Assembly: GCA_020440825.1 (NCBI GenBank)
Contig: JAGRNJ010000012.1
Span: 1-64,000, forward strand
Source: Leptospiraceae bacterium
GTDB taxonomy: Bacteria; Spirochaetota; Leptospiria; Turneriellales; Turneriellaceae
Reading direction: 5' to 3'
DNA length: 64,000 nucleotides
Position numbers and translations under genes: made by a program. Shown one piece after another: positions 24,504-30,046 of this stretch. The notes under the pieces are model-generated. The model ran no database searches and was not told the origin of the DNA. It saw only the letters and a list, made by a program, of their open reading frames with translations. How positions within the stretch are numbered: position 1 is the stretch's first letter; the number at the start of each line of letters is the position of its first letter.

Positions 24504-25469
24504 ATGCCATCACTTTCGGGTAAGACTTTTGTTGCAATGGGTGAAGATCTGGCGGCGTATGGTTTCCCAGGTGGGCATCCATTTGATCGGTTTCGTCATG
24601 CAGCTTTTGCACAAGGGCTAGAAAATGCTGATCTTCTTTCAGAGATAGTGGTGACCGAACCAGCCAGAGCTTTACCTGAAGACCTCTATTCATTTCATAC
24701 TCGGGAATATGTTTCTCTGGTACAAGAGAAATCTCTCACCGGACAGGGTTATCTCGATGATGGTGATACCCCTGCCTTTCTGGGAGTTTACGAAGCCGCA
24801 GCCACAGTGGCCGGCACAGCCTTAGATCTGCTTGAGCGGGTACTCAGTACTGAACATACAAATGCATTCCTGCCTATCGGAGGCTTGCACCATGCTCGAC
24901 GCGACTCTGCGTCTGGCTTCTGTGTCTTTAATGATTGCGGTATTGTAATCGAAAAACTTTTCCAGAAAGGGTTTCGCCGAGTCGCATATATTGATATTGA
25001 TGCCCACCATGGGGATGGGGTGTACTACAGCTTTGAAGGCAATCCGCATTTGATCTTTGCAGATCTACATGAAGGAGGCATCTACCCGGGAACCGGTTCT
25101 TCGACTGAAACCGGCGCGGGTGAAGCAAAAGGTAAAAAGCTGAATATTCCGGTACCCGCCGGTGCACGCGATGAGGTATTTTTTCATGAATGGCAGAAGA
25201 TTGAAAACTTTGTGGATGCACAACATCCAGATTTTCTTTTACTGCAATGTGGTTGTGACAGTATAGCCGGCGATCCCATTACTTCATTAAGTTTTACTTT
25301 TGCTGCTCATCAGTATGCTGCCGAACGACTTAAAGCACTGGCAGAAAAACACTGCCACGGAAGATTGATCGCCTTCGGCGGCGGTGGATACAATAAAAAA
25401 AATATAAGTATTGTCTGGCCAAAGGTTGTTTCGGCTTTGACGTCTCATGCAGACCCGCTTACCACTTAA
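24504..25469 (+). CDS. Histone deacetylase-family (AcuC/acetylpolyamine amidohydrolase-like) protein
   Basis: About 321 residues from ATG 24504. Zinc-enzyme motifs are intact: 'GGLHHARRDSASGFCVFND', 'YIDIDAHHGDGV' (D-x-H of the metal site), and 'LLQCGCDSIAGDP' for the second Asp. 'GGGGYNKKN' marks the C-terminal active-site loop with the catalytic Tyr. Family members remove acyl groups from Lys, polyamines or other amides. It is the first gene of a five-gene operon and overlaps the next gene by 23 bases. With ligases next door, it may remove an acyl group or trim a modified product (inference). Confidence 0.9.
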   Translation: MPSLSGKTFVAMGEDLAAYGFPGGHPFDRFRHAAFAQGLENADLLSEIVVTEPARALPEDLYSFHTREYVSLVQEKSLTGQGYLDDGDTPAFLGVYEAAATVAGTALDLLERVLSTEHTNAFLPIGGLHHARRDSASGFCVFNDCGIVIEKLFQKGFRRVAYIDIDAHHGDGVYYSFEGNPHLIFADLHEGGIYPGTGSSTETGAGEAKGKKLNIPVPAGARDEVFFHEWQKIENFVDAQHPDFLLLQCGCDSIAGDPITSLSFTFAAHQYAAERLKALAEKHCHGRLIAFGGGGYNKKNISIVWPKVVSALTSHADPLTT

Positions 25470-26148
25470 AATCTTAAGCCAGCCCGATGATGTAACTTGC
25501 GGCCCCACTTGTCTGCATTCTGTTTACCAGTATTACTCTCGCAAAATAAATTTAAATCGCGTCATTAAAGACGTACAAGGTCTCGATGCCGGGGGTACTT
25601 TGGGTGTTTTTCTGGGTATCGATGCCCTCAAAAATAATTTCAAGGCAACTATGTATACCTACAATCTGAGATTGTTTGACCCCACCTGGTTTTTCCCGGG
25701 GGTAGACTTGCATGAAAAGCTTAATTTACAGATGAAAAGAAAAGCGGGCAAGAAGAAACTTATTACAGCCAGCCGTGGATACCTGAAATTTCTGGAATTG
25801 GGCGGAAAGATTAAATATGAAGATCTCACAGGCAAACTGATACGAAAATTTCTGATATCTGGCACTCCCGTATTGACCGGTTTGTCAGCAACTTATCTTT
25901 ATGGCACCCCGCGAGAGATTGGCGAAACTAACGAATATGATGACCTCGGTGGTGAAGCCAGCGGACACTTTGTTGTCTTGTGCGGATACGATAAGATTGA
26001 AAAAAAAGTAACGGTTGCTGACCCGTTATTTCCGAATCCCCGGTTTAAGAGTCAATATTATCAGGTGAGTGTAAACCATCTTATTTCGTCTATTTTACTT
26101 GGCATACTGACGTATGACTCTAACCTGCTGGTAATCGAACCAAAATAA
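25447..26148 (+). CDS. C39-like papain-fold peptidase
   Basis: 233 residues. The catalytic Cys is in 'QPDDVTCGPTCLHSV', matching the C39 peptidase 'Q.....CG.....' motif with its oxyanion Gln. The His is in 'GHFVVLCGYD' and the Asp in 'VTVADP'. There is no transporter, no signal peptide and no membrane segment, so it is a cytoplasmic stand-alone enzyme, not a bacteriocin exporter. The start lies inside the deacetylase gene, and the RLAN/RimK gene follows after ten bases. It could cut a peptide or remove an amide-linked tag made by the neighbouring ligases (inference). Confidence 0.85.
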   Translation: MQTRLPLKILSQPDDVTCGPTCLHSVYQYYSRKINLNRVIKDVQGLDAGGTLGVFLGIDALKNNFKATMYTYNLRLFDPTWFFPGVDLHEKLNLQMKRKAGKKKLITASRGYLKFLELGGKIKYEDLTGKLIRKFLISGTPVLTGLSATYLYGTPREIGETNEYDDLGGEASGHFVVLCGYDKIEKKVTVADPLFPNPRFKSQYYQVSVNHLISSILLGILTYDSNLLVIEPK

Positions 26149-26158
26149 AGGAATCTTA

Positions 26159-27619
26159 ATGCCTGCTATAATTGTTGTCAATCATCCCCGAGACTGGGAC
26201 TTTAATCTACCAAGTATTCCTGTTGTTTCTGCGCGGGATTATCTTACAAAAGAAGAGTATTCTGATAATACCGATCTAAAAGTCTATAACCTCTGCAAGT
26301 CATACAAATACCAGTCCCTCGGCTATTATGTATCGTTGCTTGCAACTGCACGAAACCATAAACCGGTACCTGATATTTCGACAATACAAGAGATGCGTAC
26401 TGTAGCAGTTGTCAAAATATTTACAGAAGAACTGGATGATCTAATTCAGAAAACATTAGCAAAACTTTCAGACAACCGATTTGAACTCAGTATATATTTT
26501 GGTCATAATGTCGAAAAACGCTACGACAAACTGAGTGCCAGTCTCTACCGGCTTTTTCAAGCACCGTTATTGCGTGCCTATTTCGTTAAACAGAAAAAAT
26601 GGAGCGTTCAAAAAATTATTCCCATTACGACAGGTGAAATTCCAGAAGATCATAAACCTTATGTGGAAGATTTTGCACGAAATTATTTTACCTCAAAAAA
26701 TGAGTCAGGAAAACGCCGCAAGAAATACCGTTTTGACATGGCCATACTCGTTAACCCTGAAGAGAAAGAACCACCCTCTGGCAAAGCTGCTTTGCAGAAG
26801 TTTGAACAGGCTGCCGAAGATTGTGGTTTTCATGTAGACTTTATTACAAAAGAAGATTACCGTTTTCTCAGCGAATACGATGCTCTTTTTATTCGTGAAA
26901 CAACGAATGTAAATCATCATACTTACCGTTTTGCACAACGGGCACAGGCACAGGGAATTGTGGTAATTGATGATCCGGTTTCTATATTGCGTTGCAGCAA
27001 TAAAGTTTTTCTCGCAGAATTGCTGCGCAAAGAGAATATTCCTGCTCCCGAAACCAAAATTTTGCACAAAGAAAACTACGCAGGCCTGGCAGATCAACTT
27101 CGTTACCCCATTGTTCTCAAACAACCTGACAGTCAATTCAGCCAGGGAGTCCTGAAAGCTGCCAATGCAGCTGAATATCTTGAAAAAACCTCTACCCTGC
27201 TTGAGAAGTCAGATCTTATTATCTCTCAAGAATTTCTCTCAACAGATTTTGACTGGCGAATCGGGATTTTCAATGGCGTTCCTCTATTTGCTTGCAAATA
27301 CTTTATGGCTTCTGGCCACTGGCAGATAATGAATTGGGAAAAGTCTGATGAAAAAAGCAGGTATGGAGATTCCGAAACCTTTGCTCTCGAAGATGTTCCG
27401 AAAGGTATAATTAAAATGGCGCTCAAATCGACCAGAAAATTTGGTAAAGGTTTATACGGAGTCGACCTGAAGCAAGCAGGCAATTCTTACTATTTAATCG
27501 AAGTAAATGATAATCCCAATATTGACAAGGGAATTGAAGACAAAGTTGCAGGTGATAAACTTTACCAGACAATAATACAGGAAATTCTTACTAGGGTTGA
27601 AAAGGAAAAATCAAAATGA
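26159..27619 (+). CDS. RimK-like ATP-grasp ligase with N-terminal RLAN domain
   Basis: 486 residues with an AAAGGAA site. Residues 1-~170 match the RimK-like ATP-grasp N-terminal domain (RLAN): 'VVNHPRDWDF', 'VVSARDYLT', 'YQSLGYYVSLLA'. The ATP-grasp part has 'ETTNVNHHTYRFAQRA', 'IDDPVSILRCSNKVFLAELL', 'PIVLKQPDSQFSQGV' (Lys 321) and the metal motif 'LIEVNDNPN' (447-454). RimK relatives join an amino acid, often Glu, to a carboxylate. The substrate is not known. It overlaps the GCS2 gene by four bases, so the two ligases are made together. Confidence 0.92.
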   Translation: MPAIIVVNHPRDWDFNLPSIPVVSARDYLTKEEYSDNTDLKVYNLCKSYKYQSLGYYVSLLATARNHKPVPDISTIQEMRTVAVVKIFTEELDDLIQKTLAKLSDNRFELSIYFGHNVEKRYDKLSASLYRLFQAPLLRAYFVKQKKWSVQKIIPITTGEIPEDHKPYVEDFARNYFTSKNESGKRRKKYRFDMAILVNPEEKEPPSGKAALQKFEQAAEDCGFHVDFITKEDYRFLSEYDALFIRETTNVNHHTYRFAQRAQAQGIVVIDDPVSILRCSNKVFLAELLRKENIPAPETKILHKENYAGLADQLRYPIVLKQPDSQFSQGVLKAANAAEYLEKTSTLLEKSDLIISQEFLSTDFDWRIGIFNGVPLFACKYFMASGHWQIMNWEKSDEKSRYGDSETFALEDVPKGIIKMALKSTRKFGKGLYGVDLKQAGNSYYLIEVNDNPNIDKGIEDKVAGDKLYQTIIQEILTRVEKEKSK

Positions 27620-28818
27620 GCCAGCCTGTTTTGTCACTCTTCAAAGGGTATGGCATTGAAATTGAATATATGCTCGTTGAGAGGCAAACCTTAAAAGTTT
27701 CGCCAGTCTGTGATAAAGTAATAACCAGTCTGGCGGGAGAAACAGTAAATGAATTTGAAATGGGTCCTGTCGCTATTTCAAATGAACTGGCAAATCATGT
27801 CATCGAACTGAAAACCAATGGTCCTGCTGGCAGTCTGGAAAATCTTGCTGAAGATTTTCATACTGCAACCTTAAAAATTGAATCAACGGCACAAAATTTT
27901 GGGGCTACTTTATTAGGCACAGGCATGCATCCCACCATGATTCCTGCCAACGATACCCAATTGTGGCCCCATGGACAATCTGAAATTTACTCGGCATATG
28001 ATGCTATTTTTGGTTGTAAAGGGCATGGCTGGTCTAACCTGCAAAGTGTACATATCAACCTGCCGTTTGCTAATGATGAAGAATTCTTTTTACTGCACAA
28101 TGCTATTCGAGCGATTCTTCCTTTAATACCTGCGTTGAGTGCCTCTACTCCTGTTTGTGAATCAAAATTTGCTGCAAATAAAGACCAGCGTTTAAAAATT
28201 TATTCTGAAAACCAGAAAATTGTCCCGCAGATTACCGGGGTGGTGATTCCCGAGAGTATACACAACGCAGCAGAATATGAGCAGGTAATTTTTGAGCCTA
28301 TGTATGCCCAAATGCGAAAAAAGTTTAATGCAGATCATCTTTGTCATGAATGGCTCAACAGCCGCGGAGCAATTGCCAGGTTCGATAGAAATGCGATTGA
28401 AATTCGGGTAATCGATACCCAGGAATCAGCAAAGGCCAACCTCTCAGTAGTTAAAGCAGTTGTAAATGCAGTTCAGTTTTTTTCAAAACCTGAGTTTGCT
28501 TCTCTGGCAGAAACATTAGACCAGCAGCTTCTTGTTGAAACCTTCTGGAATTGTGTTCAATTCGGTTCTCAATGTGTCACCAACACGTTAACAGAGAAAT
28601 TGATGCCAGATGCGCAATCACAGAAATCCGCTCAGGATTTTTGGCAGTTTTTTTTACCTGCCGATGAGAAATTCTCTGAAGTTTACCTGAGACAAGGTAC
28701 ATTAGCAGAAAGAATAGTCGCCAATTACCCTGAGAGAGAAACTTCGAAAGAGCAGATTATTACAATCTACAGACAATTGAATGACTGCCTGCTCTCAAAT
28801 TCTGTGTTTGAATTATAG
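27616..28818 (+). CDS. GCS2-type carboxylate-amine ligase
   Basis: 400 residues with AAGGAAA before ATG 27616. It belongs to the glutamate-cysteine ligase 2 fold: 'GYGIEIEYMLVERQT' is the N-terminal metal-binding E-x-E motif, and 'WSNLQSVHINLPF' and 'RFDRNAIEIRVIDTQESAKANL' are the conserved later strands (R and E contacts). Canonical members make gamma-glutamyl compounds. Many members, like this one next to RimK-like genes, have unknown substrates. The four-base overlap upstream and three-base gap downstream show tight coupling. Confidence 0.9.
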   Translation: MSQPVLSLFKGYGIEIEYMLVERQTLKVSPVCDKVITSLAGETVNEFEMGPVAISNELANHVIELKTNGPAGSLENLAEDFHTATLKIESTAQNFGATLLGTGMHPTMIPANDTQLWPHGQSEIYSAYDAIFGCKGHGWSNLQSVHINLPFANDEEFFLLHNAIRAILPLIPALSASTPVCESKFAANKDQRLKIYSENQKIVPQITGVVIPESIHNAAEYEQVIFEPMYAQMRKKFNADHLCHEWLNSRGAIARFDRNAIEIRVIDTQESAKANLSVVKAVVNAVQFFSKPEFASLAETLDQQLLVETFWNCVQFGSQCVTNTLTEKLMPDAQSQKSAQDFWQFFLPADEKFSEVYLRQGTLAERIVANYPERETSKEQIITIYRQLNDCLLSNSVFEL

Positions 28819-28821
28819 AAA

Positions 28822-29508
28822 ATGTCGGCAAGCAATCAACAGATTGTAATCACCGTAGAGCATGCTTCAAATTTTATTCCTGATACCTTGCTGCAATATT
28901 TCAAATCTCAAAAGGGAATTCTGGACTCTCACCGGGCATATGACAAATTTACATCGATAATTGCAGATAACCTGTCGAAGCGACTGCAGGCTCCATGCAT
29001 AATAGGCCGAAACAGCCGTTTGATTTGTGATTTGAACCGCAGTTTACATTCAAGGAGACTGTTTTCAGAGTTTGTTAAAGATGAGTTAACGCAAAAAGAT
29101 AAGGAAAAGCTTATCTTCACTTACTATTCGCCGTTCAGAAAAAAAACCAGAGATACTATTGAAAAAATTATAGAAGAACAGAAATCAGTTTTGCATCTGT
29201 CTATTCATTCTTTTAATCCTGAATTAAATATTAACCGTCAGAATGTTGAGCTGGGTCTGCTATATGACCCTTCGAGAGAGGCTGAAAAACAGTTCGCCTT
29301 AAATTTCCGCAGATTTCTGGCGCAAGAATTTCGGGTACGTTTGAATTTCCCCTATCGTGGCACTGACGATGGCCACACAACCGCGCTGCGTAAAGTATTT
29401 AAATCTGACGATTATCTTGGTATTGAATTAGAGTTTAATCATGGGCTGCCTGATACTCGAATATTCGATATGGTAGACAAGATATATAGTTTTCTCTCTT
29501 CCCAATGA
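28822..29508 (+). CDS. N-formylglutamate amidohydrolase-like protein
   Basis: 228 residues. 'VITVEHASNFIPD' is the family start, with Glu-His as metal ligands. 'RAYDKFTSIIADNLSKRL' (usually H-x-A-x-D), 'NRSLHSRRLF', 'VLHLSIHSFNPEL' (His ligand region) and 'GIELEFNHGL' complete the pattern. Family members cleave N-formylglutamate or related N-acyl/gamma-glutamyl amides. There is no hut gene nearby, so histidine breakdown is unlikely. It ends the operon and may remove Glu-type groups added by the two ligases (inference). Confidence 0.88.
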   Translation: MSASNQQIVITVEHASNFIPDTLLQYFKSQKGILDSHRAYDKFTSIIADNLSKRLQAPCIIGRNSRLICDLNRSLHSRRLFSEFVKDELTQKDKEKLIFTYYSPFRKKTRDTIEKIIEEQKSVLHLSIHSFNPELNINRQNVELGLLYDPSREAEKQFALNFRRFLAQEFRVRLNFPYRGTDDGHTTALRKVFKSDDYLGIELEFNHGLPDTRIFDMVDKIYSFLSSQ

Positions 29509-29515
29509 AAATGGT

Positions 29516-30046
29516 TTAAATGGAATTTTGCAACAGAATAATTTTATCTAGAATCTGTTCAACCGTTGCCATTTTTCCCTTGCCAAGATCTCCGCATACT
29601 GCCTCACCATTCTGTGGATCGAGAATTTCATAACCGTATTCGGCCAATATCTGTAGATTTTTCTGTACAGCTTTATGAGCATACATAAAGGGATTCATTG
29701 AAGGGGCAAACCAACGTGGGCCCGAAAATGAAAGTAAGGTAGTTGTAATAATATCGTCGGCCCGCCCCATCGCAGCCCGTGCTATACAATCAGCACTGGC
29801 AGGTGCAATTACAAACAGATCTGCCTTTTCACGTACAGAAATATGAGGCATGGCCTCTTTAACATGATCTCTTCCCGCATACACCGGGGAATCAGAGAGA
29901 GCCTCAAATAAAACTGGCGAAATCCAGCTTGCTGCTGAATTGCTCATCAAGACCTGCACCTCAATCGATCGTTTACGTAACTCGCGGGTCAAGTCCAGAG
30001 CTTTATAAATCGCGATCGATGCAGTCACTCCCAGCAATACCTTCAT
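29516..30046 (-). CDS. coaC: Phosphopantothenoylcysteine decarboxylase-type flavoprotein
   Basis: 176 residues, a single HFCD-fold domain. 'LLGVTASIAIYKALDLTREL' is the FMN loop, 'VIAPASADCIAR' matches the PASANT region, and 'APSMNPFMY' is the PxMNxxMW substrate motif. 'GEAVCGDLGKGKM' holds the conserved Cys of the decarboxylase clamp. It lacks the CoaB synthetase half, so the second step must be encoded elsewhere. This step forms 4'-phosphopantetheine on the way to coenzyme A. It is convergent with the amidohydrolase gene, seven bases between stops. Other flavoprotein decarboxylases share these motifs, so the precise substrate is inference. Confidence 0.85.
   Translation of the reverse strand: MKVLLGVTASIAIYKALDLTRELRKRSIEVQVLMSNSAASWISPVLFEALSDSPVYAGRDHVKEAMPHISVREKADLFVIAPASADCIARAAMGRADDIITTTLLSFSGPRWFAPSMNPFMYAHKAVQKNLQILAEYGYEILDPQNGEAVCGDLGKGKMATVEQILDKIILLQNSI

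Follow-up and report, generated by a model that had tools for sequence, protein, structure and literature searches.

The locus described here raises a question of unity and of purpose: do five tightly packed co-directional genes, encoding predicted amide-bond ligases and hydrolases, belong to one system, and what might that system make? The genes lie in a window of 64,000 nucleotides, the whole stretch of Leptospiraceae DNA that was analysed (contig JAGRNJ010000012.1, positions 1 to 64,000). A preliminary description, made from the sequence alone, had proposed a five-gene operon in which two ligases write an amino-acid amide and three hydrolases remove it. We find that the last four genes form a conserved, uncharacterised member of a known amidoligase-peptidase class, and that the first, an HDAC-like gene, is a separate lineage gene that happens to sit before the cassette.

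Organization of the gene block

The coordinates and Pfam scores of the five genes (Table 1) agree with the arrangement and domain names first proposed, and the domains of all five proteins exceed the curated Pfam cut-offs. The HDAC and C39 genes overlap by 23 bases, a gap of 10 bases separates C39 from RLAN-RimK, RLAN-RimK and GCS2 overlap by 4 bases, and FGase follows GCS2 after 3 bases. The GC content of HDAC is 0.47 and that of the cassette genes is 0.39-0.42. A DUF445 gene on the same strand lies upstream and ends 88 bases before the HDAC ATG, and downstream a convergent CoaBC-decarboxylase-like gene has its 3′ end 7 bases past the FGase stop. This short gene (29516-30046, minus strand) encodes the decarboxylase (flavoprotein) half of a CoaBC-like protein only.

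Table 1. Genes of the block, in window coordinates.
Gene product	Position	Strand	Length (aa)	Pfam match and start codon
HDAC-like deacetylase	24504..25469	+		Hist_deacetyl, 242 bits (cut-off 27.9); ATG 24504, TTG start 24498 also possible
C39-like (papain-fold) cysteine peptidase	25447..26148	+	233	Peptidase_C39_2, 40.1 bits (cut-off 24)
RLAN-RimK	26159..27619	+	486	RLAN, 158 bits (cut-off 25); RimK, 37 bits (cut-off 21)
GCS2-type (YbdK-like) carboxylate-amine ligase	27616..28818	+	400	GCS2, 98 bits (cut-off 21)
FGase (N-formylglutamate amidohydrolase-like hydrolase)	28822..29508	+	228	FGase, 77 bits (cut-off 28.9)

The preliminary description had named separate promoters and terminators inside the block as evidence against an operon. 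Promoter-like and terminator-like sites in the region (n = 14 and n = 7) are no more frequent than in shuffled sequences (16.0 and 7.3), so these patterns give no argument for an internal break, and a pattern scan of this kind is unable to demonstrate a single transcript.

A four-gene cassette conserved in order and strand

We searched for RLAN in the genome itself, in 100 relatives, in 296 genomes of the phylum and in a pattern scan of 84,980 species. RLAN is single-copy in its own genome and occurs in 24 of the relatives and in 39 of the genomes of the phylum; the pattern scan revealed at least 585 relatives, and we read the best 80 loci among them. The locus set contains 112 distinct RLAN loci besides the window, 95 of them with enough flank. 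The C39, RLAN-RimK, GCS2 and FGase genes follow one another in this order on one strand in 51 of the 95, and in the window, too, the four lie side by side in this arrangement. More than ten phyla carry the full set, including Bacteroidota, Pseudomonadota, Thermodesulfobacteriota, Planctomycetota, Ignavibacteriota, Omnitrophota, Nitrospirota, Fibrobacterota, Balneolota, Acidobacteriota and Spirochaetota. Such conservation of order and strand across more than ten phyla is beyond chance, and none of the 95 loci has a core member on the opposite strand.

Incomplete sets also occur among these 95 loci. C39, RLAN and GCS2 are found together in 62, of which 11 are without FGase; C39 is the sole partner of RLAN in four; and RLAN has none of the three partners in 21, only part of which carry a GNAT acetyltransferase gene instead. 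The seeming absence of GCS2 in some loci is a threshold or gene-calling effect (in L116, GCS2 is present at 92.7 bits).

The junctions of the cassette mostly overlap or nearly touch, with a median gap of −1 for both C39-RLAN and GCS2-FGase; the median RLAN-GCS2 gap of about 52 is partly a product of internal start codon choice. Pairwise distances of the four proteins correlate, most strongly for RLAN-GCS2 (rho = 0.50) and GCS2-FGase (rho = 0.53), which partly reflects shared vertical descent. On the RLAN tree the cassette has a patchy spread, and the window clusters weakly (SH-aLRT 83) with a full cassette from a member of its order. Among the neighbours of RLAN loci we found only clade-local genes, and no further conserved gene able to name a pathway.

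The HDAC gene is distributed independently of the cassette

A neighbourhood comparison had been suggested for the recurrence of both HDAC and FGase, and it separates the two: FGase recurs in the cassette and HDAC does not, so that the proposed operon stands as a conserved four-gene block and loses HDAC as a functional member. Among 113 RLAN loci, HDAC adjoins the cassette in the window only; in the one other locus with an HDAC gene nearby (L156), it is the third gene beyond GCS2. HDAC orthologues (50-57% identity) are present in ten order-level relatives, eight of which are without RLAN (G003, G004, G005, G008, G011, G012, G015, G017), and in the remaining two (G014, G016) the RLAN gene and the HDAC orthologue are on different contigs. 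No cassette gene lies beside an HDAC orthologue in these ten genomes, the sole match to a window gene there being a weak one in L183. On this distribution we rejected HDAC as a cassette member, and the conserved unit has two hydrolases, FGase and C39, rather than the three first proposed. Because HDAC is distributed independently of the cassette and differs from it in GC content, we regard its 23-base overlap with C39 as a local junction.

The HDAC protein has a Hist_deacetyl domain with intact zinc and catalytic motifs, and its PDB matches are HDAC6, clr6 and HDAC8. An intact enzyme, encoded on the same strand with an overlapping frame, could function as a fifth member, removing the acetyl group from an N-acetylated intermediate, in a system complete only in this lineage, and N-acetylation is plausible in the sister GNAT systems described below. 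Its adjacency to the cassette in a single locus, orthologues mostly in genomes without RLAN and never beside cassette genes, and a base composition unlike that of the cassette make this highly improbable. Co-transcription of HDAC with the cassette is plausible in this window; a shared function is not supported. Removing HDAC from the picture avoids a false acetylation lead. One HDAC orthologue (L184, G004:C1:496209-498198) is split, with query residues 9-157 and 161-315 encoded about 1.1 kb from each other, a layout suggestive of an insertion.

Two predicted ligases and two predicted hydrolases

The RLAN-RimK protein consists of an RLAN domain (residues ~25-170) followed by a RimK/LysX-type ATP-grasp domain (~190-480); PF14401 lies N-terminal to PF08443, both over cut-off, and K282, K321, E448 and N450 are invariant. 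Its AlphaFold2 model (pLDDT 92) shows RimK, LysX/ArgX and the D-Ala ligases (Ddl) as structural matches of the ATP-grasp half; for the RLAN half, the matches listed include no solved structure. All matches to characterised NCBIfam families are far below cut-off: the RimK alpha-L-glutamate ligase family TIGR00768 gives 69 bits (cut-off 143.4), and the N-acetylglutaminylglutamine synthetase family TIGR03103 (cut-off 569 bits) gives no match. The best PDB match of the GCS2 model (pLDDT 91) is YbdK (1r8g, TM 0.65/0.74), followed by plant glutamate-cysteine ligase and, more weakly, PafA. Its scores against the glutamate-cysteine ligase and YbdK families (62.4 of 371 bits and 54.6 of 176.4 bits) are far below the cut-offs. 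RLAN-RimK and GCS2 thus both model as ligases.

The conserved cassette begins with C39 and ends with FGase. Gln12, Cys18, His174 and Asp192 of C39, the Peptidase C39 catalytic set, are invariant in an alignment of 36 homologues, and the nearest solved relatives in the PDB are the ComA/PCAT peptidase domains. E13, H14, R66, R73, H125, H129, E202 and E204 of FGase are invariant in an alignment of 34 homologues, and its nearest PDB entries are 2odf (E = 5e-37) and then 2q7s. Considered as a HutG (N-formylglutamate deformylase), FGase has the PF05013 domain over cut-off and no NCBIfam match. We consider the invariant residues of the cassette enzymes to be putative catalytic residues.

A sister arrangement with a GNAT acetyltransferase

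Besides the cassette form, 16 RLAN loci contain a GNAT acetyltransferase and are without the GCS2/FGase part. GNAT is fused to a DUF3335-type C39 domain in four loci (L052, L062, L065, L069), is fused to the N-terminus of RLAN-RimK in three (L071:2067-4142, L072:8924-10927, L133:9509-11479), and is a separate ORF in others, among them L074, L075, L090 and L131. Two of the RLAN-RimK fusions (L071, L072) come from the window's own family, the other sampled genomes of which are without the cassette. The GNAT-RLAN fusion has no match to TIGR03103. We found no GNAT match in full-cassette loci using the GNAT-C39 profile, the only profile with which GNAT partners were sought and one that may miss divergent acetyltransferases. 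On the RLAN tree, the GNAT form requires three changes compared with 8.7 in shuffles. As RLAN-RimK is found with either GCS2/FGase or GNAT, both partners may serve to add an acyl cap to an amine. In one GNAT-form locus, from Verrucomicrobia, an ornithine/arginine-type decarboxylase gene follows RLAN-RimK (L090:4033-5373).

Proposed function of the cassette

Two ATP-dependent amide ligases of different folds, together with an amidohydrolase and a cysteine peptidase, imply the making and breaking of amide bonds on one substrate. We give about an even chance to a cytoplasmic route to a short capped peptide or amino-acid amide, assembled by RLAN-RimK and GCS2 and trimmed or recycled by FGase and C39. 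Positions 25447-29508 would accordingly encode a four-gene cytoplasmic amide-bond cassette that may be inherited and transferred as a unit. RLAN-RimK would activate a carboxylate at the expense of ATP and join it to an amino acid, and GCS2 would cap an amine of that small molecule or short peptide through a second amide bond, probably of the gamma-glutamyl type. FGase, whose relatives are known as N-acyl amino acid hydrolases, would hydrolyse the N-acyl cap, and the C39-like peptidase would cleave or trim the peptide, leading to its turnover or maturation. N-acetylglutaminylglutamine amide offers an analogy for the product, which would most likely be a soluble, capped short peptide: there, a GNAT/ATP-grasp enzyme acetylates one glutamine and joins a second to yield a capped dipeptide (PMC8070244). 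This pathway and the GNAT alternative favour a capped short peptide over protein modification. Against it stand the position of RLAN-RimK outside every characterised family, the 21 of 95 loci in which RLAN has none of its three cassette partners, the four with C39 as sole partner, and the share of vertical descent in the distance correlations. A broader proposal, possible but doubtful, is that the product is a capped short-peptide metabolite not yet described, shared by more than ten phyla, with GCS2/FGase and GNAT as interchangeable capping modules around RLAN-RimK.

RimK adds amino acids to ribosomal protein S6, and PafA attaches Pup. As RimK itself acts on a protein, RLAN-RimK could have a protein target too. 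The cassette could then carry out a reversible modification, with RLAN-RimK and GCS2 adding amino acids or a short peptide to the protein and C39 and FGase taking them off again. We consider this unlikely, since no conserved tag or target gene accompanies the cassette, the GNAT alternative looks like a small-molecule pathway, and the relatives of FGase act on N-acyl amino acids. What speaks for a protein target is that the ATP-grasp half counts RimK among its closest solved relatives, that RimK is paired in Pseudomonas with the reversing protease RimB (PMC12239564), and that GCS2 is related to the Pup ligase PafA (PMC2588565), as the structure match also indicates.

A glutathione or other thiol pathway would make GCS2 the glutamate-cysteine ligase and the ATP-grasp protein the second ligase. 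In fold, and weakly in sequence, GCS2 is similar to plant glutamate-cysteine ligase, and the second step of glutathione synthesis is carried out by an ATP-grasp enzyme, but GCS2 scores far below all glutamate-cysteine ligase equivalog cut-offs. On contig C11 the genome also has a gshA-type gene next to one for a GshB that scores over cut-off, so the cassette is not its only GCS/GSH-synthetase pair, and because of these separate genes we rejected a glutathione role as very unlikely. C39 enzymes cleave double-glycine leaders, and C39 could serve as the leader peptidase of a ribosomal-peptide (graspetide-like) pathway. Graspetides are made by ATP-grasp enzymes (PMC8939145). Among short ORFs within 900 bases upstream or downstream of 50 cassettes, however, none is conserved beyond close relatives, and no transporter family recurs broadly among the neighbours. 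With no short ORF next to the cassette conserved across groups, a RiPP precursor was rejected, and the chance of such a pathway is slight in the extreme.

Relation to known systems

Iyer and colleagues reportedly predicted RLAN-RimK/GCS2/peptidase amidoligase neighbourhoods by comparative genomics in 2009, and the Pfam text for PF14401 presumably describes RLAN as fused to a RimK-like ATP-grasp domain near GCS2 and a peptidase. Like those neighbourhoods, the window has a RimK-like ATP-grasp protein with a fused RLAN domain, together with genes for GCS2 and a peptidase; added here are measurements of the complete order including FGase, of its spread and of the GNAT alternative. A search of the literature available to us found no paper on RLAN-RimK or on the C39/RLAN-RimK/GCS2/FGase combination. 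The asnO-ngg-aminopeptidase operon for the osmolyte N-acetylglutaminylglutamine amide is alike in its acyl cap, its ATP-grasp peptide bond and its peptidase gene, and pairs GNAT with ATP-grasp as the sister RLAN systems do, but it is without RLAN, GCS2, C39 and FGase, and the RLAN proteins do not match its synthetase family, TIGR03103. The rim operon (RimK with the protease RimB) and the rlo operon of Pseudomonas likewise set a RimK-type ATP-grasp against an opposing protease; there, however, the peptidase is aspartic (retropepsin-like) rather than C39, RimK has no RLAN domain, and GCS2 and FGase are absent. YbdK-type carboxylate-amine ligases share the fold and the GCS2 domain, whereas the window GCS2 is far below the YbdK family cut-off in sequence and is encoded inside a ligase-hydrolase cassette.

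That four enzymes stay in the same order across more than ten phyla and yet have no assigned product marks a sizeable annotation gap. Their function is a directly testable question, given the tight order, the two alternative partner modules and the distinct genes for glutathione synthesis, and the four proteins are small and soluble.

Variants of the cassette

Individual loci depart from the common layout. In a Fibrobacter, GCS2 and FGase are separated by a tyrosine-phosphatase-like gene (L117:12794-14140). FGase carries a C-terminal extension of about 340 aa with no family match in one locus (L067:5641-7272) and one of about 200 aa with a weak HD-domain match in another (L119:12696-13964). 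In a full relative of the same order, an N-acetylmuramoyl-L-alanine amidase-like gene overlaps the end of the cassette (L061:4887-6281).
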